Shown piece after piece: positions 13,785 through 25,745 of a stretch of 34,907 bases of DNA (positions are counted from its first letter, which is position 1; each line of letters begins with the position of its first letter). The notes below the pieces were generated by a model, which ran no database searches, was not told the origin of the DNA, and saw nothing but the letters and a program-made list of their open reading frames with translations. Made by a program: the position numbers and the translations under genes. The stretch is from Eubacteriales bacterium (GTDB taxonomy: Bacteria; Bacillota; Clostridia; Oscillospirales; CAG-382): positions 1 through 34,907 of the forward strand of contig JAQWDK010000021.1 in assembly GCA_028705495.1 (NCBI GenBank), read 5' to 3'.

Positions 13785-13815
13785 GCCGCTTCGCGGCAGA
13801 ATGGAGATTTTTATG
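13785..13815 (+). promoter_or_regulatory. Hairpin plus SD module in front of the nucleotidyltransferase gene
   Basis: GCCGCTTCGCGGCAGAA (13785-13801), then TGGAGATTTTT and the ATG at 13813. The first 17 bases are identical to those before sigE, and the SD and start region differ by only one inserted and one changed base. Confidence 0.75.
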
Positions 13816-14715
13816 ACACTTGTTATTCTCGCTGCGGGTATGGGCAGCAGGTTCGGAGGTCTAAAACAAATCGAACCGGTCGGAGCTGAAGGTGAATTTA
13901 TAATCGACTATTCGGTATATGATGCAAAGCGCGCAGGATTCGATAAAGTAGTTTTCATCATTAAAAGAGAATTCTTCGAATCCTTTAAAAATACAATCGG
14001 CGCAAGAATTTCCGGTATAGAAGTTGATTATGTTTTTCAAGATATGGACAATCTTCCGACAAAAGCGGGCAAAGATGTTGTCAGAGAAAAACCCTGGGGA
14101 ACAGCTCATGCACTTTACTGCTGTAAAGATGCCGTTAAAGAAAACTTTGCAGTCATAAACGCTGACGATTTCTACGGAAGACGCTCCTATGAACTTATGG
14201 CAAACTATCTTAAGAACATAAAGAGCGGCGACAAGAAGGACCATTATTCAATGGTCGGTTATATGCTGCGCAACACACTTACCGAAAACGGCCATGTGGC
14301 GCGCGGACTTTGCGTAGTAGAAAACAGTTATTTAAAAGCTATTGACGAACGTACGAAAATACAGCGCAACAACGGTGTTATCCAGTACTTCGAAGATGAA
14401 ACAGGCTGGACTAATGTCGCTGAAGACACAGTCGCATCAATGAATTTCTGGGGATTTACTCCATCTATATTCGAACATATCGCAAAAGGCTGGGACAGCT
14501 TTATAAAAGAAAGTTCTGCTAACCCGACAAAGGCTGAATATTACATTCCCGTTCTTGTAAAAAACCTGCTTGCTTCGGATAAATGCGATGTAAAGGTGAT
14601 TGAAACACCTGATAAATGGCAAGGCGTTACATATGCGAGTGACAAACATGGTGTCGTTGAGTATATAAAAACTCTTACCGTAAACGGTGAATATCCGGTC
14701 GGCCTTTGGAGTTAG
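13813..14715 (+). CDS. Sugar-phosphate nucleotidyltransferase (probable HexNAc-1-P uridylyltransferase)
   Basis: A 300-residue nucleotidyltransferase. The GT-A-like signature LAAGMGSRFGGLKQ lies at residues 5-18, WGTAHALYCC at about 93, and the metal-binding VINADDFYG at about 111. In the general family it would join NTP and a sugar-1-phosphate. The NahK-type 1-kinase two genes downstream supplies the obvious substrate, GalNAc-1-P or GlcNAc-1-P; the NTP is unproven. It is not a GlmU because the acetyltransferase beta-helix is missing. The start at 13813 was chosen over the ATG at 13801 because GGAG (13803-13806) lies between them. First enzyme gene of the six-gene operon, 34 bases before the next. 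Confidence 0.82.
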   Translation: MTLVILAAGMGSRFGGLKQIEPVGAEGEFIIDYSVYDAKRAGFDKVVFIIKREFFESFKNTIGARISGIEVDYVFQDMDNLPTKAGKDVVREKPWGTAHALYCCKDAVKENFAVINADDFYGRRSYELMANYLKNIKSGDKKDHYSMVGYMLRNTLTENGHVARGLCVVENSYLKAIDERTKIQRNNGVIQYFEDETGWTNVAEDTVASMNFWGFTPSIFEHIAKGWDSFIKESSANPTKAEYYIPVLVKNLLASDKCDVKVIETPDKWQGVTYASDKHGVVEYIKTLTVNGEYPVGLWS

Positions 14716-14749
14716 GCGTTAAATTTAATTAACGGGAATAGGTGTTGTT

Positions 14750-16012
14750 ATGAAAAAGGATAAAGTAAATATCGGTTTTATCGGACTTGGTTCAAGAGGT
14801 TACGGATATCTCGGTCTTCTTCTTTCGATGCCGGATGTTGAGGTTCTCGGTGTCTGTGATCTTTACGAAGACAGAGCAGAAGCAGGCAGAAAGCTCGTTC
14901 AGGAAAGAAAGGGCAACAATCCTGTTTGTACTTTGGATTACAAGGAGCTTCTCGAAATTGAGGAGATTGATGCGATCATTACCCCCTCATCTTGGACTGC
15001 ACATGGTGAGATCTGTATCAATTCGATGCTTGCCGGTAAATATGTCGGCACGGAAGTGGGCGGCGCTACTTCGATTCAACAGTGCTGGGATATAGTAAAA
15101 ACCTCAGAATTGACCGGTATGCCCTGTATGATGCTCGAAAACTGCTGTTATGGTAGGGAAGAGATGACCATCCTAAATATGGTAAAGCAAGGTCTGTTCG
15201 GTGAGCTTGTCCACGCCGAAGGCGGATACAGGCATGACCTTCGTGACGAGGTCGCTCTCGGCCGCGAAAAACGCCATTACAGACAGCTCAACTACCTTAA
15301 CCGCAACGGTGAGGTTTACCCGACACATGAAATCGGTCCTATCGCAAAGTATCTTAATCTCGGAAGAGGCAACAGAATGCTTTCGCTCACCTCAACTTCT
15401 TCAAAATCCGTCGGCATAAACGACTGGATAAAAAAGAACAAAGGTAAGGATTACGATCTTTATGAAAAGAAATTTGCTCTCGGCGATGTTGTAACAACAG
15501 TTATCAAATGCGCTCATGGTGAGACGATTGTGCTGTTCCACGACACATCACTGCCACGCCCCTATTCCCGCGGCAACTTGCTTCAGGGAACAAACGGTAT
15601 CTGGAGCGAAGACAAAGCGGCAGTTAGCATAGAAGGCATCACACCTGTGAAAAATACATGGGACCACCATGCATGGCAACCGCTTGAAGAGCTCTATCCT
15701 GAATATGAGCATCCGCTTTGGAAACAATATCGTGAAGCTGGAGTCAAAGCCGGACACGGCGGCATGGACTATCTTGTTATAAGAGCCTTTATAACAGCGG
15801 TTAAGAACGGCACGGACACTCCTATCAATGTTTATGACACAGCCGCTTGGATGGCGATTACGACACTCAGCGAAGACTCCATCGCAATGGGTAGCATGCC
15901 TGTGGCAATACCGGATTTCACCAACGGAAGATGGATTGATCCGAAACCCGCGATCAAAGGCAGATATTGCCTTGACGAGGTAAGCGGTGAATCCATGGAT
16001 GAAGAATGGTAA
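14750..16012 (+). CDS. GH109-like NAD-dependent glycosidase (alpha-N-acetylgalactosaminidase type)
   Basis: A 420-residue Gfo/Idh/MocA-fold protein with Rossmann motif GFIGLGSRG. It follows the GH109 pattern: MMLENCCYGREEM, NMVKQGLFGELVHAEGGYRHDLR, NYLNRNGEVYPTHEIGPIAK. The residues E130, Y160, Y190 and H193 keep the spacing of the Glu, Tyr, Tyr and His described for the Elizabethkingia enzyme. GH109 enzymes release terminal alpha-GalNAc (blood group A, mucin cores) with catalytic NAD+. Unlike many members it has no Tat or Sec signal, so it should act in the cytoplasm on imported sugars. An ordinary dehydrogenase is the main alternative. It stands between the nucleotidyltransferase and kinase genes, gaps 34 and 18 bases. 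Confidence 0.78.
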   Translation: MKKDKVNIGFIGLGSRGYGYLGLLLSMPDVEVLGVCDLYEDRAEAGRKLVQERKGNNPVCTLDYKELLEIEEIDAIITPSSWTAHGEICINSMLAGKYVGTEVGGATSIQQCWDIVKTSELTGMPCMMLENCCYGREEMTILNMVKQGLFGELVHAEGGYRHDLRDEVALGREKRHYRQLNYLNRNGEVYPTHEIGPIAKYLNLGRGNRMLSLTSTSSKSVGINDWIKKNKGKDYDLYEKKFALGDVVTTVIKCAHGETIVLFHDTSLPRPYSRGNLLQGTNGIWSEDKAAVSIEGITPVKNTWDHHAWQPLEELYPEYEHPLWKQYREAGVKAGHGGMDYLVIRAFITAVKNGTDTPINVYDTAAWMAITTLSEDSIAMGSMPVAIPDFTNGRWIDPKPAIKGRYCLDEVSGESMDEEW

Positions 16013-16030
16013 AAGGAAGGGTCCTATATA

Positions 16031-17116
16031 ATGGCGAATAATTATCTTTTAGATATAGCAAATAAGTTTTCTCTTATCGGAAATGCAGCCAGTGCCGAAA
16101 GCTATGGTTTCGGTCATATAAACGATACATATCTTGTTGTTGCGGACAGCGGAACAAGATACATCATGCAGCGTATCAACAACAAAGTTTTCCCGAATGT
16201 CGTCGGACTGATGAAAAACATAGAAGCTGTGACAAATTTTCTCTCAAAGAAAGTCTCCAACCCCGATGAATGCTTAAGGCTTGTACCGCTTAAAAGCGGT
16301 GGGGTGTTTCACCAAGATGAAAGCGGATATTATAGGGTATACTATTTTATTGAAGATGCAATGACTTATCAAAAGGTTGAAGAACCAATTCATTTCTACT
16401 TCTCCGGTGTTGCATTTGGCCGCTTCCAAAATCAGCTCTCAGACTTTCCGGCAGAAACACTCTGCGAGGTAATTCCGAATTTTCACAACACCGAAAGCCG
16501 CTTTGCTGACTTCAAAAAGGCCGTAGAGCTCGACGTTATGGGTAGAGCTGCATCAGTTAAAGAAGAGATTGAATTTGCGCTTGCTCGTGAAAAGGATGTA
16601 TCGGTGCTTGTCAATATGCAAAAGCGTGGTGAGCTTCCGCTACGTGTTACCCACAACGACACAAAGCTCAACAATGTCATGCTTGACGCAAAAACAGGTA
16701 AGCCGAAATGCGTTATAGACCTTGACACCGTAATGCCGGGTCTGTCACTATACGATTTTGGCGACAGCATTCGCTTTGGTTCAAACCCTGCAGCTGAGGA
16801 TGAAAAAGACCTCTCAAAAGTTTTCTGCGATCTCGATCTATTTGAACTATATACGAAGGGCTTCCTTAGTGAATGCAGAGAACAGCTTACCGGAAACGAA
16901 ATAAAAATGCTGCCGTTCTCTGCGAAGATGATGACTTATGAATGCGGTATTCGCTTTCTTGCCGACCATCTCTCGGGCGACACATATTTTAAAATACATC
17001 GTGAAAATCACAATCTTGACCGCTGCAGAACCCAGTTTAAGCTTGTAGAAGACATGGAACTGAAGATGGATAAAATGGCTGAGATAGTTGATAGACACTC
17101 AAAAAAAGGGAACTAG
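16031..17116 (+). CDS. nahK: N-acetylhexosamine 1-kinase (NahK type)
   Basis: A 361-residue aminoglycoside-phosphotransferase-fold kinase. Key motifs match bifidobacterial NahK: SYGFGHINDTY near the N-terminus, FGRFQNQLSDFP at about 129, PNFHNTESRF at about 149, the catalytic loop RVTHNDTKLNNVMLD (Asp at residue 210) and VIDLDTVMPG (Mg-binding Asp). NahK phosphorylates GlcNAc and GalNAc at C1 with ATP in the lacto-N-biose/galacto-N-biose pathway. The adjacent nucleotidyltransferase and GH109-like genes support this role. No lacto-N-biose phosphorylase is in the window, so free GalNAc/GlcNAc would come from other enzymes. Gap of 43 bases to nagB. Confidence 0.88.
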   Translation: MANNYLLDIANKFSLIGNAASAESYGFGHINDTYLVVADSGTRYIMQRINNKVFPNVVGLMKNIEAVTNFLSKKVSNPDECLRLVPLKSGGVFHQDESGYYRVYYFIEDAMTYQKVEEPIHFYFSGVAFGRFQNQLSDFPAETLCEVIPNFHNTESRFADFKKAVELDVMGRAASVKEEIEFALAREKDVSVLVNMQKRGELPLRVTHNDTKLNNVMLDAKTGKPKCVIDLDTVMPGLSLYDFGDSIRFGSNPAAEDEKDLSKVFCDLDLFELYTKGFLSECREQLTGNEIKMLPFSAKMMTYECGIRFLADHLSGDTYFKIHRENHNLDRCRTQFKLVEDMELKMDKMAEIVDRHSKKGN

Positions 17117-17159
17117 ATTGAAAGATAAAACTTTCAACAAAGAAAGGTAAGGTACAAAA

Positions 17160-17948
17160 ATGAAAACAGAAGTAAAACTTTACACAAACGGGAAGGATAA
17201 AAATATCCGTGTATATGTTTGCAAGGATTATGAAACTCTCAGCAAGAAAGCAGCTACAATTTTTGCTTCCCAAGTAAATTTAAAGCCTGAATCGGTGCTT
17301 GGACTTGCTACAGGCTCCTCGCCAATTGGTATGTATAAAGAGCTTATCAAGATGAACAAAGCTGGTGAGGTTGATTTTTCAAAAGTCAGCTCTTTCAACC
17401 TTGATGAATACTATCCGCTTGAAGAGACAAACGAACAGAGTTACCGCTATTTTATGAATCAGAACCTTTTTAAGGATATCAACATCGACATCAGCCGAAC
17501 TCATGTTCCAAACGGAAACGCAGCTGATATCGAAAAAGAAGCTGCAGATTACGACAAAGCAGTCGCTGATGCGGGCGGCATTGACCTTCAGGTTCTCGGT
17601 ATAGGAGGAAACGGTCATATTGGATTTAATGAACCTGACAGCACTTTTGTACTTCCCACTCATGTTGTCAACCTCAAAGAGGACACAATAAAAGCTAACT
17701 CAAGATTCTTCGCAACGATTGATGATGTTCCTAAGCGTGCAATCAGTATGGGTATAGGCACAATTTTCGCCGCTCGTTCGATTCTTCTTGTCGCTTCGGG
17801 TAAAGGTAAAGCTGAAGCTATCAAAGCAACCCTTGAAGGCAACCCCGATCCTATGGTGCCTGCTTCCGTTCTCAAGCTGCATTCAAATGTTTATTTTGTA
17901 ATCGACGAAGAAGCTGCATCCCTGCTTGAAGAATATAAACCCGAATAA
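17160..17948 (+). CDS. nagB: Glucosamine-6-phosphate deaminase
   Basis: A 262-residue protein with the substrate loop LGLATGSSPIGMY at about 47, the catalytic base in FNLDEYYPL (D82), and GIGGNGHIGFNEP (H153 and E158) as in E. coli NagB. It converts GlcN-6-P to fructose-6-P plus ammonia in the cytoplasm. It starts at ATG 17160 after AAAGGTAAGG. It lies between nahK and the 2-epimerase gene. The matching deacetylase nagA is at 7.9 kb, not in this operon. No GlcNAc 6-kinase is seen in the window, so entry of GlcNAc-6-P needs genes elsewhere. Allosteric control cannot be judged. Confidence 0.96.
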   Translation: MKTEVKLYTNGKDKNIRVYVCKDYETLSKKAATIFASQVNLKPESVLGLATGSSPIGMYKELIKMNKAGEVDFSKVSSFNLDEYYPLEETNEQSYRYFMNQNLFKDINIDISRTHVPNGNAADIEKEAADYDKAVADAGGIDLQVLGIGGNGHIGFNEPDSTFVLPTHVVNLKEDTIKANSRFFATIDDVPKRAISMGIGTIFAARSILLVASGKGKAEAIKATLEGNPDPMVPASVLKLHSNVYFVIDEEAASLLEEYKPE

Positions 17949-17971
17949 GATTGAAAGATATGGTTATAAAA

Positions 17972-19192
17972 ATGAAAAAACAAACTTATGAAAGCTTTCG
18001 CCAGTATTACAAGGATAAGCTCCTTGAGGATAGCATTCCTTTTTGGCTACAAAGCGATCTAATAGATAAAAAGTACGGCGGTTATATTTCTTCAGTAGAC
18101 AGATATGGTAAAAGCTACAACGACGATAAATCCGTCTGGTTCCAGGGCAGATGCCTTTGGACTTTCTCCGCTCTTTGCAACAGATACGGTAAAACAGATG
18201 AGTGGATGAAGGCTGCTGAAGCTGGTGTTGATTTTCTTGAAGAAAAGTGTATTGATACCGATGGCAGGATGTTCTTTCAAGTAACAAGAGAAGGAAAACC
18301 ACTCAGAAAACGCCGCTATATGTTTTCTGAGAGCTTCTATGTTGTTTCCATGGCTGAGTATGCATTGATGACGGGTAAGAAAGAATATCTGAAAAAAGCT
18401 GAAGAATGCTTTGAGCTTATGCTGAGGATGTTCTACGACTCTTCGAGCGACCCTTATAAAATAACACCAAAATCATATGCTGAAACACGCTCAGAACGTG
18501 CGGCTTCCGTTCCGATGGTGCTTATTAGCAGTGCGCAAGTGCTTCGCCGCTGTGACCCCGACAAGGCTGAGTATTATAGCAAAGTAGCCGATGAAATGGC
18601 TGAAGTTATAATTAATTGCCACTATAAACCCGAGCTCCAGTGCGTTCTCGAAACTGTCGCACAGGATGGAAGCAAAATCGACACACCCGCGGGAAGAACC
18701 GTCAATCCCGGACATTCTATGGAAAACGCTTGGTTCCTTATGAATCATGTAATCCATACTGGCAACAAAGAGCTCCTCCAAAAAGCACTTAACATCCTTG
18801 ACTGGTCGCTTGAACTTGGTTGGGATGATATGTTCGGTGGTTTCGTCTACTTCATCGATATCGACGGAAAGCCTTGCGAACAGCTTGAACATGATATGAA
18901 GCTCTGGTGGGTTCATAATGAAGCGCTTATTGCGACACTTATGGCACACCTTCTCACAGGTGAGAAAAAATACTGGGATTGGTTTGTCAGAATTCATGAC
19001 TATTCCTTCGGACATTTTCAGGACAACGAATACGGTGACTGGTACGGATATCTTCACAGAGACGGAACAGTTTCCCATACACAGAAAGGCTCAATGTGGA
19101 AGGGTCCTTTCCACCATCCGCGTTGTTTGATGATCTGTGAGGAACTGCTCGGTATGCTCTCAGAGGGTAAGAAACCTTCGGTAGTTTTATAA
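17972..19192 (+). CDS. N-acylglucosamine 2-epimerase (AGE family)
   Basis: A 406-residue (alpha/alpha)6-barrel protein with family motifs: VWFQGRCLWTFSAL at about 55, the NPGHSMENAWF motif (His 248), MKLWWVHNEALIATLM at about 315 and KGSMWKGPFHHPRCLM, with the second catalytic His at about 381-382. AGE interconverts GlcNAc and ManNAc; relatives act on cellobiose or mannose, but the amino-sugar neighbours favour GlcNAc/ManNAc. In some gut bacteria an AGE feeds sialic-acid-derived ManNAc into GlcNAc metabolism. The start was chosen by family alignment (YESFRQYYKDKLL near the N-terminus); ATG 17960 and TTG 17951 are also in frame, and none has an ideal SD. Confidence 0.9.
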   Translation: MKKQTYESFRQYYKDKLLEDSIPFWLQSDLIDKKYGGYISSVDRYGKSYNDDKSVWFQGRCLWTFSALCNRYGKTDEWMKAAEAGVDFLEEKCIDTDGRMFFQVTREGKPLRKRRYMFSESFYVVSMAEYALMTGKKEYLKKAEECFELMLRMFYDSSSDPYKITPKSYAETRSERAASVPMVLISSAQVLRRCDPDKAEYYSKVADEMAEVIINCHYKPELQCVLETVAQDGSKIDTPAGRTVNPGHSMENAWFLMNHVIHTGNKELLQKALNILDWSLELGWDDMFGGFVYFIDIDGKPCEQLEHDMKLWWVHNEALIATLMAHLLTGEKKYWDWFVRIHDYSFGHFQDNEYGDWYGYLHRDGTVSHTQKGSMWKGPFHHPRCLMICEELLGMLSEGKKPSVVL

Positions 19193-19214
19193 AGTTTAAG
19201 GAAAAATAAAAAAG

Positions 19215-20030
19215 ATGAAGATCAAAAAAATAACAGCAACATTTCTTGCTGTCCTCGCTCTCGCTTTGATTCCTCCGCTTTCAACATTTGCGGCAGAAAA
19301 AGAATATGTTTATATAACAGTCGAAAAATTTACTCTCGGACAGGGGTTTATCCTTGAGCCGACTCGTTTTGAGCTTGTTGAAGGAGAAACTGCCCAGAGC
19401 CTTTTGGAAAAGGCTATTGCATCGGATAAACTTGTGATTGTCAAAAGCCAGTACGGTGACTATATCGACGGTATCAAGGACGGAGATACAGCCGAAGCGG
19501 TTATTCCTCAGTATATTCTTGACGAAATAACGGGTGAGGAAGTGACTGGAAGAGCGGCTGAAGGTGTCCTGTCAGGGCTTGATTATACGAGCCAGGGCGG
19601 ATGGCTTTACGCTGTCAACAACGAAGCGGCCGTAATAGCTATGGGCGAATGTGAGTTGAAAGCTAACGATGTTGTCAGATTCTTTTTCAGCGTTTACGGT
19701 TACGGAACAGATGTCGGATTTGGTTTTGACTTCGAAACGAACCAGAGCGACGCTTCTTATATAGATATGGCAAATCGTGATGAGCTTATAAAGATAGTTG
19801 CAGATAAGAAAGCAGAAGATGACTCCGCAGACTTTAGCGATGAGCTTGCGCTGCTTGCAAATCTCGAAGCAACTCAAGCAGAACTTGACGAAGCAGCCGA
19901 TTCACTCAGTGGTGGGAATGTTATTACACCTCCTGCAACTGGGGATTGCCGTTTCTGCATTTTATTAATCACGCTTGCAGTAAGCGGGATTGGCGTTGTT
20001 GTTGCGGTTAAAAAGAAAGTAGTACGGTAG
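19215..20030 (+). CDS. DUF4430 surface protein with sortase-like C-terminus
   Basis: A 271-residue exported protein. The signal peptide ends at about residue 26 (STFAA). A DUF4430 domain (transcobalamin-C-terminal-like fold) spans about 35-165 with GETAQSLLEKAI, GGWLYAVNN and DVVRFFFSVYGYGTD. An Asp/Ala-rich helical spacer follows, then PPATGD, a hydrophobic segment and KKKVVR. This tail has the layout of an LPxTG-type wall anchor in an altered form, so sortase attachment is an inference; it could simply stay in the membrane. Such proteins bind corrinoids or act as adhesion or ligand-binding modules. Last gene of the operon, 22 bases after the epimerase gene, with a terminator 10 bases downstream. 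Confidence 0.82.
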   Translation: MKIKKITATFLAVLALALIPPLSTFAAEKEYVYITVEKFTLGQGFILEPTRFELVEGETAQSLLEKAIASDKLVIVKSQYGDYIDGIKDGDTAEAVIPQYILDEITGEEVTGRAAEGVLSGLDYTSQGGWLYAVNNEAAVIAMGECELKANDVVRFFFSVYGYGTDVGFGFDFETNQSDASYIDMANRDELIKIVADKKAEDDSADFSDELALLANLEATQAELDEAADSLSGGNVITPPATGDCRFCILLITLAVSGIGVVVAVKKKVVR

Positions 20031-20040
20031 ATATAAAACA

Positions 20041-20064
20041 GGCGCGCCCTTTGACGCGCCTTTT
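20041..20064 (+). terminator. Terminator ending the amino-sugar operon
   Basis: GGCGCG (20041-20046) pairs with CGCGCC (20055-20060), then TTTT. Its right arm, GACGCGCC, is the same word that opens each downstream 97-bp repeat. Confidence 0.75.
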
Positions 20065-20087
20065 ATATTATGATAATATATTTTTAT

Positions 20088-20330
20088 GTGACGCGCCAGC
20101 TAACGATAAATTTTTATCAAGGTAAGTGCGCGTCTATGGTATTATGTTTTTATTGCTTACAAACAAAAAAGCGAAGCTTTTTGAGTGACGCGCCAGCTAA
20201 CGATATATTTTTATCAAGGTAAGTGCGCGTCTATGGTATTATGTTTTTATTGCTTACAAACAAAAAAGCGAAGCTTTTTGAGTGACGCGCCAGCTAACGA
20301 TATATTTTTATCAAGGTAAGTGCGCGTCTA
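20088..20330. repeat. 97-bp tandem repeat: two full copies and one half copy
   Basis: Copies at 20088-20184 and 20185-20281 differ at one base; a third, at 20282-20330, contains only the first 49 bases. Each half-unit is bounded by GACGCGC and its complement GCGCGTC, so it can form a long hairpin with an inner GATA/TATC pair. The second half of each unit carries AAAAAGC-GAA-GCTTTTT, a terminator-like stem. The array fills most of the 325 bp between the DUF4430 and galM genes and ends 25 bases before the galM ATG. It has no ORF and no CRISPR-like spacers, since the spacers are identical. Confidence 0.92.
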
Positions 20331-20355
20331 AAACGCGGAATGTGAGGTTGTTAAA

Positions 20356-21390
20356 ATGAACAGCAAAAGGCTATTCGGTATGATTGGCGACAGAGAGATT
20401 CACGCGTACGCCTTGCAATGCGGCAGGATGGAAGCGGAAGTCCTCGATTACGGAGCAATAATTCGCAGACTCAGTTTCAAAGGCAGAGATATTGTTTTTG
20501 GTTTTGACGACCTTGAGAGCTATATCAAGACCAACGACTACCATGGCGCAGTCGTAGGCAGGGTTGCCAACCGAATCAAGGGTGGTAGATTTATGCTGGG
20601 TGGTAGAGAAGTTATTCTCGACCGCAACGACGGAAATAACCATCTCCATGGCGGCATTAAAGGGCTTGACAAGGCTATATGGAGGAGCTTCGGTACGGAT
20701 AAATACATATCACTCGAAAAATCCTCCGAGGATGGGGATCAGAAATACCCCGGTAATGTGGAGGTTACAGTCAACTACTTCCTCCAGTTCAATAGGCTCC
20801 TTTGCGTTATCGAAGCTGAAACCGATGAGGACACAGTATTCGGTCCTACACTCCACTGCTATTATAATCTTGCCGGTGTAAATAGCGGTGAAGATATCTT
20901 AAACCATAAGCTTACTTTGTATTGTGACAAATACAATGAAGTTGACGATGAGCTTATTCCAGTAGGAGAGGCTGCAGTTGTTGCTGGAACACCATTTGAT
21001 TTCAGAGATGGAAGGCTGATCGGTGAGAGGATCGGCGAAGACAATCAGCAGCTAAAATACGGTTCGGGCTATGACCATAATTACCATATACGCAAGGATA
21101 TCGAATCGTCCATTGAAATTTCGGGTATGACATGTTACCGTGCAGCAACGGCCGAGTACAGCGATATGACGATGGATTTATACACCAGCCAACCCTGTAT
21201 GCAGTTTTATTCTGGCAACTTCATGAATAAACCATATAAGTTTTCGGGCGGTGCAGACCAGCGTCCGAGATTAGGCTTTTGTCTTGAACCACAATTTGTT
21301 CCCAACTCTCCCAACCTTCCAAACTGCGGTAGAACGCTGTTGAAGAAGAATAAACTCTTCCGCTATATGCAGGTTTTAGAATTTAGGTAA
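20356..21390 (+). CDS. galM: Aldose 1-epimerase (mutarotase)
   Basis: A 344-residue protein with galactose mutarotase motifs: GRVANRIKGGRF at about residue 69, NNHLHGG with the first catalytic-site His at about 97, PTLHCYYNLAG with the second His, GYDHNYHI, and GFCLEPQFVPNSPN with the catalytic Glu. It speeds alpha/beta interconversion of galactose, glucose and related sugars in the cytoplasm. TLHCYYNL replaces the usual TNHxYFNL, a mild change. GAGG stands 9 bases before the ATG. Its promoter must lie in or next to the 97-bp repeats. The aldo/keto reductase gene follows after 46 bases, so galM probably heads a four-gene unit. Confidence 0.92.
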   Translation: MNSKRLFGMIGDREIHAYALQCGRMEAEVLDYGAIIRRLSFKGRDIVFGFDDLESYIKTNDYHGAVVGRVANRIKGGRFMLGGREVILDRNDGNNHLHGGIKGLDKAIWRSFGTDKYISLEKSSEDGDQKYPGNVEVTVNYFLQFNRLLCVIEAETDEDTVFGPTLHCYYNLAGVNSGEDILNHKLTLYCDKYNEVDDELIPVGEAAVVAGTPFDFRDGRLIGERIGEDNQQLKYGSGYDHNYHIRKDIESSIEISGMTCYRAATAEYSDMTMDLYTSQPCMQFYSGNFMNKPYKFSGGADQRPRLGFCLEPQFVPNSPNLPNCGRTLLKKNKLFRYMQVLEFR

Positions 21391-21436
21391 AGATTTAAAG
21401 ATAAATTTTTCGATTATGAAAGGAATGCTCATCTTT

Positions 21437-22573
21437 ATGGAATACAGAAAATTAGACAAACTTGGAGTATCTCTATCCCTTTTAGGCTTCGGGTGCATGA
21501 GACTTCCAACAAGACAGGACGGTAAAATTGATCGTGATGAAGCGACGAGATTAATTGACAAAGCATACAAAAACGGGGTCAATTATTACGATACCGCTTA
21601 TACATATCATAACAGTGAAAGCGAATCGTTTATAGGTTCTGCGCTTTCTGCTTACGACCGCGGCAGCTTTTATATTGCTACAAAACTACCATCCTGGGAG
21701 GTGAACAGCCTTGCAGATGCGGAACGCATATTCGCAGAACAGCAGGGGCGGTTACAAGTTTCGTATGTTGATTTCTATCTTTTACATGCTTTGAGCAAAA
21801 AGAGATGGGACAAAATGGTGGAGCTTGGTATTCTTGAATTTGTCGATAAACTCAAGAAAGAAGGCAAGATAAAATATTTAGGTTTTTCCTTCCATGATGA
21901 TTACCCTGTTTTTGAGGAAATCTTAAACAGCCGAGACTGGGATTTTTGTCAGATTCAGCTCAACTATATGGATGTTGACGAACAGGCAGGGATGAAAGGC
22001 TATGATTTAGCAACCGCAAAGGGCGTTCCGGTTTTTGTTATGGAACCGATAAAAGGCGGACTGTTAGCGCAACTTCCCGAGGAAATTTCCTCAGAATTTC
22101 ACTGTATTGCTCCGGAACGTTCGATGGCATCATGGGCCTTCCGTTGGGTTGCAAGTCTGCCTAATGTCAAGCTGATTCTCAGTGGTATGTCAACTATGGA
22201 ACAAGTCGAGGACAATCTTGAAACCTTTAGCGAAAAGAATGTATTTTCACCTGAAGAGGAAAAAGCAGTTTTAGATACAGCTGATGCTCTTAGAAATCGT
22301 GTATACAACGGCTGCACAGGTTGTAGCTACTGTATGCCTTGCCCTCACGGTGTAGACATACCGACGAATTTTTCGATCTGGAACAATTACGGTATTTACC
22401 GCAATATTAATACAACAAGATGGGAAATCGGAAGCTCGCTTAGCGAAGGCGAAAGAGCATCTAACTGCACGGAGTGCGGACTTTGTGAAAGTAGCTGCCC
22501 ACAGAAAATAGAGATTAGACAAGATTTAAAACGAGTACATATTGATTTTGAGAAAATAACAGCTAAGGAATAA
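21437..22573 (+). CDS. Ferredoxin-type aldo/keto reductase
   Basis: A 378-residue protein. The AKR barrel begins MEYRKLDKLGVSLSLLGFGC and has YYDTAYTYHNSESESFIG (catalytic Asp and Tyr), the active-site Lys in ATKLPSW and VDFYLLHAL with a His. The C-terminal 70 residues hold two Cys clusters, CTGCSYCMPCPHGVDIP and CTECGLCESSCPQKIEI, typical of two [4Fe-4S] centres in anaerobe AKRs. Substrate unknown. The start at 21437 was taken because GAAAGGA lies about 12 bases before it; ATGs at 21416 and 21425 are in frame. The ECF component gene follows after 7 bases, suggesting a joint role. Confidence 0.9.
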   Translation: MEYRKLDKLGVSLSLLGFGCMRLPTRQDGKIDRDEATRLIDKAYKNGVNYYDTAYTYHNSESESFIGSALSAYDRGSFYIATKLPSWEVNSLADAERIFAEQQGRLQVSYVDFYLLHALSKKRWDKMVELGILEFVDKLKKEGKIKYLGFSFHDDYPVFEEILNSRDWDFCQIQLNYMDVDEQAGMKGYDLATAKGVPVFVMEPIKGGLLAQLPEEISSEFHCIAPERSMASWAFRWVASLPNVKLILSGMSTMEQVEDNLETFSEKNVFSPEEEKAVLDTADALRNRVYNGCTGCSYCMPCPHGVDIPTNFSIWNNYGIYRNINTTRWEIGSSLSEGERASNCTECGLCESSCPQKIEIRQDLKRVHIDFEKITAKE

Positions 22574-22580
22574 AATTTAA

Positions 22581-23123
22581 ATGGTCTTGAATACAAGAAC
22601 TCGAAAAATTGCAGTCGGTGGTTTAATGATTGCTTTAGCTCTGCTACTGCCGCAAGTTATACATCTAATCGGTGGATCCGATCTTGGTAAATACCTTCTA
22701 CCTATGCACATACCGGTGCTTCTTGGTGGAATGCTGTTAGGTCCTGTGTATGGACTGGTTATCGGTCTTATATCACCGCTGCTCAGCTCGTTTCTAACAC
22801 AAATGCCGCCAGTCTTAATTTTGCCATTTATGGTGATAGAGCTTGCCGCTTACGGTTTTATGGGAGGTTTATTATACAAAACCTTCAATTTAAGAAAACG
22901 TAAGGCAGGAGCGGTAATTTGTTTGGTGCTGTCGATGTTGTTCGGGCGGCTGAGCAATATGCTTGCGCTATTTATAGCAACCGACTTTTTAAAAATCTCA
23001 AAGCTTGGCGCAGTATATGCTGTTAATGCGACCGTTAGTGGAGTTGTCGGAATTTTAATACAGCTTCTGTTAATTCCGGCACTACTTTATGTTCTTGAAA
23101 AGACGGGAAAGCGTGAAATATAA
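22581..23123 (+). CDS. ECF transporter S component (substrate-binding membrane subunit)
   Basis: A 180-residue protein with about six transmembrane helices. The family signature is LPMHIPVLLGGMLLGPVYGL followed by VIGLISPLLSS, as in S components of energy-coupling-factor vitamin/precursor importers (Pfam ECF transporter S component). It binds one small molecule and works with a shared EcfA-A'-T module encoded elsewhere. Substrate cannot be read; neighbours (AKR, DUF1893) give no firm hint. It starts at ATG 22581 after AAGGA, and its TAA overlaps the next ATG by one base (TAATG), so translation is coupled to the DUF1893 frame. Confidence 0.85.
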   Translation: MVLNTRTRKIAVGGLMIALALLLPQVIHLIGGSDLGKYLLPMHIPVLLGGMLLGPVYGLVIGLISPLLSSFLTQMPPVLILPFMVIELAAYGFMGGLLYKTFNLRKRKAGAVICLVLSMLFGRLSNMLALFIATDFLKISKLGAVYAVNATVSGVVGILIQLLLIPALLYVLEKTGKREI

Positions 23124-25705
23124 TGAGCGATTCACTCAAAAAAGCAAAAGAAGCCTTGGAAAGCGGCGGTCATTCATTGGTAATAATTCGTAATGGACAT
23201 CCTTTTTACTCGTCACTCGACGGAATCCGTCCCTTGCTGACATTACTTGCAGAGGATCCTGCGGCATTTACAGGTGCTTTTGCTGCGGACAAGGTGATCG
23301 GCAAGGCAGCGGCAATGCTGTTCGTCTACGGCGGGGTTCGCGAGGTCTATGGCAGCATTGTCAGTGAACACGCAAAAGCGGTGCTGGAAAAAGCTGGAGT
23401 AGCCTGCGAATACGGTCAGCTCGTGCCATACATCGTTAACCGTGCAGGGGACGGTATGTGTCCGATGGAAAAGCGAGTAATTGAGATAAATGAACCCGAA
23501 GAGGCATACCTAGTGCTAACAGAAAGGAATATTATGAAACAAATAAAACCTTGGGAAGAGCGATTCGGTTGGTACCATTACAATCTGGAGAGCGTTTATA
23601 ATTTCACTGAAAAGGATTATAATGCAGCTGCGAAGTCGTATTACGACTCTGGAATTACAAGTATAATTCTGTTCGGTGCGCATTTTCGCTTTTCATTTTG
23701 GGCATATTGGGACGATATTGTCAAGTTTATCACAAACTTTACAAAGGCCTGCCATCGCTACGGGATGAAGGTTATTGAGCACCATTCGAGCCATTTAACA
23801 TACGAACCCTTAGAGGAGAGCGACTGGGACAAGGGACTTGCGTTGTCGGCAGTCGGCGGTGAGTTTATTGCTGATTTCCGCAAAACCTCACAGGAAAATC
23901 CAGACTTTGACGGTGACAGGCTTGATGACTTTGCTCAAATTGATGGAAGTACAGGCAAAAAAGCGCTTTCTTCTTATATACATACCGAAGGTAAAAATGT
24001 CGAATGGATTTTCAAGCATTATAGCGGCAACGCTCACTGCTTCAACCATCCAGCATTTGAGAGGGTTTACTGGGAACATATCAAAGCGATAATTGAAGAG
24101 GCAAAAGTAGACGGAATGATGAACGACGATGTTCAGTGGTTCGGCGGCGGACATGCTTGTGCTTGTGAATATTGCCGTTCAAAGTTCAAGGCGGAAACTG
24201 GATACGAGCTTCCGCACCCGGATAAATGGGCTGATTTTTATGAGAATTACGATAGAGAAGACTATATAGCTTGGAAAAAGTTTAAGAAAAAGTCGAGCGG
24301 TGACTTCCATCGCCGTATGGATGAATACTATTCAAGTATAGGCTTCCATCCAATGCGTCCGGCATATTGCGCTGAGGTTCTGCCGTTTGACACAACTTGT
24401 TACGGTTTTGAATCAGCGGCGGAACTTTGGGACTATATCTTCCAAGAATGCTGCGGCATAATACACTATTCTTATATTTGTTTCGCAGGTGAGGCTGTAC
24501 ACCGCTATGCGATGGCGAAGCGCAGGGGCGTTCCGGCAATGGCGCTGCTCTACCCTGCGACAAAAGATTCAATGTACGCTTCTTGGGCGCTGTGCCGCTC
24601 CTGGGGGCAGATGTATACTGGTACTGGTGGTCTGGGTTCGGAGCTGTTCGATAAACCATACCGTGACTTTGAAAAAACATACGGCATTTATCTTGATGCT
24701 TCAGATAAAAAACCTGATATATCGTTCTTCTTCTCGGAGACAACGAGGGATTATACCGATAAAGACGCTCCGAAGAAATATATGAAACCGCTTATGAGCT
24801 ATTTGGAATCAGCTTATGTAAGCGGCTTGACATGCGACATGGTGTTCAGAGATGACAATGTGGAAGTTCTTTCAGAATCACCAGCGATAGCGGTTGTTTC
24901 AATTGTTATGATAAGTGACGAAGAAATAGCAAAGCTGCGTGAATATGCAAATTCTGGCGGACGGCTGCTTGTTATCGGCGATTTTGCATTGAAAGATGAA
25001 AACGGCGCAAAACGAAGGCTCGGAGAAGGACTTGAAAAGCTCGGACTACGATCCAATCTTGTAGAATGCGATTATAAAGGCGTGGAACATTTTAACTTTG
25101 AAGGCAAAAACCATAACTTTGAAAACGCAAAGAGCAAGTATAAAATTGATTCTCAAGGAATTGTCGTATCTCGTGGTAACGGCGGTGAGGTGCTTTGTGT
25201 CGCTGAAAAGGTCGGAAAGGGAATGGTAATACTACATCCCGGCGATGTTTCAGAAAATCCAATTCAGGCAGCTATCTGGCCGAGAGGTGAAACGCCTATT
25301 GACGCATCTGCTATCCCGGAGATGAAGTCGGGTAACGGTAAACTCCTGTCTCTTTGTATTTCAAACAAGAGCATTGAGCATGAAAAAGAAGACCTGCTGG
25401 CGACGGTGTATGAGGCTGGAGGTGCAACAACGATCCACCTTGTGAACACTGCCGGAATGCTACCTGAAAAGGATTCGGTCGGTACAACAAAAGACCCAAT
25501 ACCAGCTTTTTGTGATAATGCTGAAAAAGTCTCTGAGTTTGAGATAAAGCTAAACCGCTCATTTGGTAAAGAAGCGACAGCAGAGATTGTTTCACCGGAA
25601 TTTGAGGGCAGTGTGTCTGTGCCCTGTCATTTCGACAGCGACTCACTTCTTCTGACAGTTCCTGGAGGAATTTTTTCGGGTTATGCACTGATAATAATTC
25701 GATAA
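23123..25705 (+). CDS. DUF1893 domain fused in frame to a GHL6/GH42-like hydrolase
   Basis: An 860-codon ORF with two unrelated parts. Residues 1-135 are a complete DUF1893 domain (TM1506-like, deaminase-type fold): GVREVYGSIVSEHAKAVLEKAG, split as GVREVYGSIVSE and HAKAVLEKAG, plus ADKVIGKAAAM and NRAGDGMCPMEK. From M138 a TIM-barrel hydrolase of the GHL6/GH42 type begins, with CFNHPAFERVYWEHIK, DGMMNDD (D330-D336) and a Cys triad at C346, C348 and C351. A GATase-like beta-galactosidase trimerisation domain follows at about 530-625 and a beta-rich end. No signal peptide. At the junction GAAAGGA stands 7 bases before ATG 23534 (M138), and stops in both other frames lie just before it (TAG 23511, TAA 23517). 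Either a real fusion, a second protein (723 residues) from the internal start, or a lost stop. Confidence 0.8.
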   Translation: MSDSLKKAKEALESGGHSLVIIRNGHPFYSSLDGIRPLLTLLAEDPAAFTGAFAADKVIGKAAAMLFVYGGVREVYGSIVSEHAKAVLEKAGVACEYGQLVPYIVNRAGDGMCPMEKRVIEINEPEEAYLVLTERNIMKQIKPWEERFGWYHYNLESVYNFTEKDYNAAAKSYYDSGITSIILFGAHFRFSFWAYWDDIVKFITNFTKACHRYGMKVIEHHSSHLTYEPLEESDWDKGLALSAVGGEFIADFRKTSQENPDFDGDRLDDFAQIDGSTGKKALSSYIHTEGKNVEWIFKHYSGNAHCFNHPAFERVYWEHIKAIIEEAKVDGMMNDDVQWFGGGHACACEYCRSKFKAETGYELPHPDKWADFYENYDREDYIAWKKFKKKSSGDFHRRMDEYYSSIGFHPMRPAYCAEVLPFDTTCYGFESAAELWDYIFQECCGIIHYSYICFAGEAVHRYAMAKRRGVPAMALLYPATKDSMYASWALCRSWGQMYTGTGGLGSELFDKPYRDFEKTYGIYLDASDKKPDISFFFSETTRDYTDKDAPKKYMKPLMSYLESAYVSGLTCDMVFRDDNVEVLSESPAIAVVSIVMISDEEIAKLREYANSGGRLLVIGDFALKDENGAKRRLGEGLEKLGLRSNLVECDYKGVEHFNFEGKNHNFENAKSKYKIDSQGIVVSRGNGGEVLCVAEKVGKGMVILHPGDVSENPIQAAIWPRGETPIDASAIPEMKSGNGKLLSLCISNKSIEHEKEDLLATVYEAGGATTIHLVNTAGMLPEKDSVGTTKDPIPAFCDNAEKVSEFEIKLNRSFGKEATAEIVSPEFEGSVSVPCHFDSDSLLLTVPGGIFSGYALIIIR
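23522..23536 (+). promoter_or_regulatory. Internal SD and ATG at the DUF1893-hydrolase junction
   Basis: GAAAGGA (23522-23528 region), then a short AT-rich spacer and ATG at 23534. It lies exactly where a DUF1893 protein would normally end and the hydrolase begins, so an independent start of the hydrolase is probable. Confidence 0.65.
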
Positions 25706-25711
25706 AAACTA

Positions 25712-25745
25712 AAAACGCTGAACCATTTAGGTTCAGCGTTTTTTT
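25712..25745 (+). terminator. Strong terminator of the galM-hydrolase unit
   Basis: A 13-bp perfect stem (25712-25724 with 25730-25742), loop ATTTA, with a T run at 25739-25745. Confidence 0.95.

Follow-up and report, generated by a model that had tools for sequence, protein, structure and literature searches.

The window, that is, the whole stretch of 34,907 nucleotides analyzed here, is one entire contig of a draft genome assembled in 63 contigs. A short operon-like run of genes on its forward strand ends in a single open frame of 860 codons that spans 23123-25705 without an internal stop and joins two proteins. The features of this region are the following:

21416..22573, + strand: aldo/keto reductase with a C-terminal 4Fe-4S domain (Pfam Aldo_ket_red, 134.4 bits, plus Fer4 models)
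22581..23123, + strand: ECF transporter S component (Pfam ECF_trnsprt, 66.4 bits, and its coordinates)
23123..23533, + strand: DUF1893/TM1506 domain, residues 1-137, without a stop codon
23521..23528, + strand: predicted ribosome-binding site inside the frame, coding for part of Thr-Glu-Arg-Asn (8-base match, duplex energy -10.3 kcal/mol with an assumed 16S tail)
23534..23536, + strand: in-frame internal ATG, M138 (16S match; aligned stand-alone relatives start nearby in alignment A1)
23534..25705, + strand: 723-residue protein, predicted GH42-type fold made up of a barrel and a trimerisation-like domain
25716..25745, + strand: terminator-like hairpin and T run directly 3' of the hydrolase (identified by eye)

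The start codon of the DUF1893 domain and the stop codon of the ECF S gene share one base (TAATG), and the order reductase, ECF S, DUF1893, with the reductase first, recurs in three other genomes (G001, G008, and G017). The whole 860-residue protein, used as a query, matched one place only in the window's own genome. Farther upstream, positions 13801-21390 hold a gene run that resembles a set for amino-sugar use: a nucleotidyltransferase, a GH109-like oxidoreductase, an APH-like kinase, a glucosamine-6-phosphate isomerase-like protein, an N-acylglucosamine 2-epimerase, a DUF4430 protein, and an aldose 1-epimerase.

The N-terminal part of the frame matches DUF1893/TM1506 (PF08973) over residues 8-133, scoring 143.1 bits where the cut-off is 27, and the original prediction of a DUF1893 domain joined in frame to a hydrolase-like protein is thus confirmed by this match and the open frame. 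When modelled alone, the domain adopts the TM1506 fold, and the residues invariant among its relatives in a 17-row alignment (Ala55-Asp56, Gly60, Cys113-Pro114, and Glu116) are all present. Zinc-dependent deaminases carry the motifs His/Cys-x-Glu and Pro-Cys-x-x-Cys. The deaminase-like fold was found here, but these motifs were not found in residues 1-137, where the second is impossible because Cys95 and Cys113 are the only cysteines. Among 17 loci of relatives, chosen by likeness to the window DUF1893 and in some cases ending at contig ends, an ECF S gene lies directly upstream of DUF1893 in 12 (the four ECF S queries included three taken from loci within the count), and a 4Fe-4S aldo/keto reductase is a neighbor in 9; with these as the recurrent neighbors of the domain, the functional reading first proposed, which tied DUF1893 to sugar hydrolysis if the fusion is real, is too narrow. 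The solved structures of TM1506 (PDB 1vk9) and of a Borrelia DUF1893 protein (PDB 9e9a) are chains of about 150 residues without a fused partner, unlike the domain in the window. Auto-ADP-ribosylation of the Thermotoga DUF1893 protein is reported in a review (PMC8946771).

Residues 138-860 form a complete second protein, in which no Pfam domain exceeds its cut-off. Its predicted structure has the barrel and the trimerisation-domain fold of GH42, and the label "GHL6/GH42-like hydrolase" therefore holds in its second half at the level of predicted fold, while its first half is barely supported, the GHL6 model matching 1 of 46 family members (E 0.0095). The GH42 catalytic Pfam model matches 0 of the same 46 at E<=0.01, which sets the family apart from GH42 enzymes; the window part is 10-14% identical to these enzymes and their relatives (5xb7, GH164, beta-1,2-glucosyltransferase, and exo-glucosaminidase). 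In GH42, the catalytic pair of glutamates sits on barrel strands 4 and 7. As placed by alignment and model, the invariant acids after the strand at 331-334 are Asp335 and Asp336, and no invariant Glu lies just after the strand at 472-476. The hydrolase may serve the amino-sugar cluster at 13801-21390. Copies of the family also occur side by side in other genomes, three in a row at L006, L024, and L026 (G038:C10) and two at L046.

The joint itself was examined by a search with the window protein (P0001), in which scoring covered the 7994 candidates with the most shared words and 45 proteins were listed. One of these, P0002, comes from another assembly and was seen as a protein; it has 860 residues, of which 840 are identical to the window protein (98%) and 20 are substituted, and its joint is the same. 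The other 44 listed proteins are 645-754 aa long and none carries DUF1893, and in alignment A1 the N-termini of 23 of them fall no more than about ten residues from M138. Because P0002 derives from a different assembly and has the same 860-residue frame, a chance base error at the joint appears unlikely, and a single-base error that erased a stop, one of three options raised at the outset, is largely ruled out; the check proposed with it, a search for the joined frame in related genomes, found that frame in P0002. DUF1893 homology runs in frame through residue 133 and hydrolase homology from near residue 138, so that no frameshift is visible inside either part. No linker has been added, and the final DUF1893 codons overlap the predicted ribosome-binding site of the hydrolase. 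The stop codons TAG (23511) and TAA (23517) do lie just before the joint as originally described, but both are in the same other frame (+1) rather than in two; the stops preceding the joint in the third frame are TGA 23482 and TGA 23491.

The start signal at the joint consists of AGAAAGGA at 23521-23528 followed, after five bases, by ATG 23534. All duplex energies given here were computed with a generic Bacillota 16S tail, which was assumed because a 16S gene was not found in the window's assembly. As a control, we collected 1305 internal in-frame ATGs from 219 other long frames in the window and 20 further stretches (305,087 bases in all). A 16S match as strong as or stronger than that of 23534 was found at 22 of these ATGs (1.7%), and a match of 8 bases or more at one; among the frame starts, taking the best start codon within the first 30 codons, 24% of the 219 reach -10.3 kcal/mol. 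The claim of a strong start signal at the joint is borne out by these figures. The fused frame has other strong start codons, for example ATG 24539 at -11.2 kcal/mol and TTG 23177 at -12.5 kcal/mol, with exact 16S matches of 5 bases or fewer. ATG 23534 is thus a second in-frame start with its own predicted ribosome-binding site. Judged from the sequence, a free 723-residue product besides the 860-residue fusion is likely, and the DUF1893 part, having no stop of its own, could be freed only after proteolysis. The two remaining options of the original prediction both appear compatible with these data: a fusion enzyme, with a fused frame shared by P0002, and two nested products of 860 and 723 residues, with a start near the N-termini of stand-alone relatives and a signal like that of many real starts.

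Comparison with related genomes bears on how the joint arose. In G001, a genome of the same genus, the reductase and the ECF S component are accompanied by a separate DUF1893 gene that ends within one residue of the equivalent of I137, and no hydrolase match was found. Among 63 genomes of the family, both parts were found in the window's genome (G000) alone, five others gave the hydrolase only, and twelve gave DUF1893 only (one of them cut at a contig end). No DUF1893 was seen in the flanks (up to 8 kb) of 29 hydrolase loci obtained by scanning species genomes with two peptide patterns. A wider pairing of DUF1893 with this hydrolase was accordingly rejected, no further case having turned up in a set of 60 genomes (the window's own included), in the 63 family genomes, or in the 29 scanned loci. 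Read-through upstream of the hydrolases at L002-L005 was also discarded as chance extension rather than DUF1893; one hit there, for example, starts at query residue 98 and contains a TAA. The pairing is thus seen in the window lineage only among the genomes searched, and the claim that DUF1893 is tied to sugar hydrolysis finds no support beyond that lineage (1 of 63 family genomes and 0 of 29 loci): the gene is no evidence that DUF1893 belongs to sugar hydrolysis. P0003-P0009, the closest among the matches listed, share 70-76% identity with the window hydrolase, and the hydrolases found in its own family share 54-60%; the sequence comparison suggests that the hydrolase gene arrived by transfer behind DUF1893.

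Substitutions between P0001 and P0002 are unevenly distributed, with 15 in the 137 residues before the joint and 5 in the 723 after it (Fisher p 4e-9). Between the window genome and G001, DUF1893 is 46% identical, ECF S 47%, and the reductase 56%, and the somewhat faster evolution of DUF1893 hardly explains the contrast between 15/137 and 5/723. The uneven pattern suggests recombination or relaxed constraint on DUF1893, recombination near the joint being a possible cause.

To place the fusion in context, DUF1893 was surveyed in 295 genomes of the order (51 with matches) and 392 of the class (61 with matches), ten of the positive genomes being shared, which gives 102 distinct genomes; some of these matches are partial (e.g., G101, G576, G591, and G005). 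In 13 of the 102, the window included, DUF1893 lies in an open frame of at least 300 aa together with a second protein; twelve were counted by a second Pfam domain over its cut-off, and the window, whose second part has none, was counted apart. DUF1893 precedes an aldo/keto reductase in G201 and G229 and a TetR-family regulator in G531 (L094:932-2038) and G666 (L095:938-2020), which belong to a single genus. It follows a glycerate kinase in G167 (L089:629-2422), a pyroglutamyl peptidase in G284 (L090:1260-2291), and an ECF S component in six genomes (G008, G312, G686, G428, G364, and G333), which may represent one event or several. A second match in G008 (C46) was dropped; it scores 20.6 bits, short of the cut-off, and two stops interrupt its open frame of 1092. 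Frames of at least 220 aa were inspected, and those of 220-271 aa in G193, G541, G330, G353, G382, and G098 were, by eye, not counted, since their extra length is a C-terminal tail in G541 and read-through from upstream in the others; G047 (220 aa) was also left out of the fusion count. In the G541 protein (L097:1637-2449), inspection by eye shows, besides DUF1893, a charged tail rich in Ala and Lys and a zinc-ribbon-like C-terminal cysteine pattern. In the same 295 order genomes, frames of at least 300 aa number 7 for DUF1893, one among the listed RidA rows (G086, 319 aa), and none among the listed HIT rows, a control that is weak and indicative only because the RidA and HIT lists hold just the best-scoring rows.

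With the window DUF1893 as the query, proteins of 473-1505 aa yielded matches only to P0002 and to P0047 and P0048, in which ECF S, DUF1893, and biotin ligase are joined in this order. A further 19 diverse fusions of DUF1893 with an aldo/keto reductase (P0049-P0067, 498-516 aa) came from a search with the DUF1893 part of the fusion at L088, so that this set leans to the reductase type. As in the window, DUF1893 comes first in these proteins, the partner follows in frame, and a Met stands at the partner's start (18 of 20 aligned rows); unlike in the window, the partner is the kind of reductase that neighbors the window DUF1893 and is found fused in 19 diverse proteins, whereas the GH42-fold protein was seen fused to DUF1893 only in the window and P0002. 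At all five joints with a partner on the C-side for which DNA was read, the in-frame start of the partner is kept, with 16S matches of -9.3 to -11.5 kcal/mol; at the two TetR joints, about 15 bases separate the matching site from the ATG downstream of it, more than usual. The ECF S fusions (L010, L091, L093, L096, L098, and L099) and P0047/P0048 resemble the window in joining DUF1893 in frame to an operon neighbor, but in these proteins DUF1893 is C-terminal or in the middle rather than N-terminal, and the six ECF S loci, again unlike the window, have no start codon better than -3.0 kcal/mol near the DUF1893 start. The glycerate kinase and peptidase fusions have in-frame start codons near DUF1893, at -7.1 to -9.8 kcal/mol. 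The recurring pattern is DUF1893 in frame with its operon neighbors, with the start of a C-side partner kept where DNA was read; the window gene and the other joins together are evidence that the domain tolerates, and perhaps exploits, being tethered to them.

We consider it probable, at roughly three chances in four, that loss of a stop codon fused a complete DUF1893 to a newly acquired gene for a GH42-fold hydrolase, and that the kept start still gives a free 723-residue protein. The hydrolase gene would have arrived horizontally behind DUF1893, and the DUF1893 stop codon would then have been lost beside it, leaving what appear to be the hydrolase's old ribosome-binding site and ATG inside the fused frame. 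Translation from both starts would yield the 860-residue fusion and the free 723-residue protein; the hydrolase would be made in excess, and all DUF1893 in the cell would be tethered, because the frame has no stop to release it. An error of sequencing or assembly at the joint, whether by removal of a stop or by a frameshift, is very improbable: the assembly is a draft in 63 contigs, but the identical joint in P0002, despite 20 substitutions and a separate assembly, and the continuous in-frame homology of each part speak against it.

The remaining alternatives concern what the fusion does. A neutral accident, in which the stop was lost in one lineage, the two domains keep their old jobs, and the hydrolase is made mostly from the internal start, is less likely than not; the detection of the hydrolase fusion only in the window lineage, the seemingly intact ancestral start, and the lack of an added linker favor it, but the fusion persists in two lineages whose proteins differ by 2%, and DUF1893 joins recur (13 of 102 genomes, and 7 in the order genomes against one for RidA and none for HIT among the listed rows of that weak control). 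Functional coupling, which seems rather unlikely, would make the 860-residue form the working protein; selection would have favored the fusion for an effect of DUF1893 on the hydrolase or on its position, for example next to the ECF S component. In favor of this, the frame has stayed open through 15 changes among the 137 residues on the DUF1893 side; DUF1893 is fused elsewhere, to ECF S in six genomes without a good DUF1893 start, in the biotin ligase triple, and to the reductase; and the one-base overlap of ECF S and DUF1893 is a layout in which, according to PMC10666635, genes for complex subunits are overrepresented in E. coli and Haloferax. Against coupling, no other searched genome pairs DUF1893 with a GH42-fold hydrolase, the partners of DUF1893 have no evident common pathway, and residues 1-140 of the full-length model are mostly at pLDDT <50, because only two alignment rows covered them, so no DUF1893-hydrolase interface is readable. 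A bolder idea, which we regard as a long shot, is that DUF1893 is a portable control module, welded by stop loss to a succession of transport or metabolic proteins. If so, the kept start of a C-side partner would let tethered and free forms coexist, and the domain, which is reported to ADP-ribosylate itself, might act in cis on the protein it is joined to, here the GH42-fold hydrolase, and so link NAD status to that protein's activity or to where it sits relative to the ECF transporter.

Under the favored reading of stop loss with a kept start, the closest known parallel is that of bacterial genes with in-frame dual starts, which, according to PMC11005335, give N-terminal proteoforms. Like these, the window gene has one frame and two likely starts; unlike in these, its putative starts mark two formerly separate genes. 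The window gene resembles a pair of genes partway through merging, its old internal start not yet lost, and this makes the order of events, stop loss first and start loss later, testable across the DUF1893 series. In one large paper collection that was searched, the name "DUF1893" is absent and "TM1506" almost absent. For a domain whose structure is solved and on which that collection holds so little, the fusions provide a list of partner proteins to test, foremost among them ECF S and the 4Fe-4S reductase.
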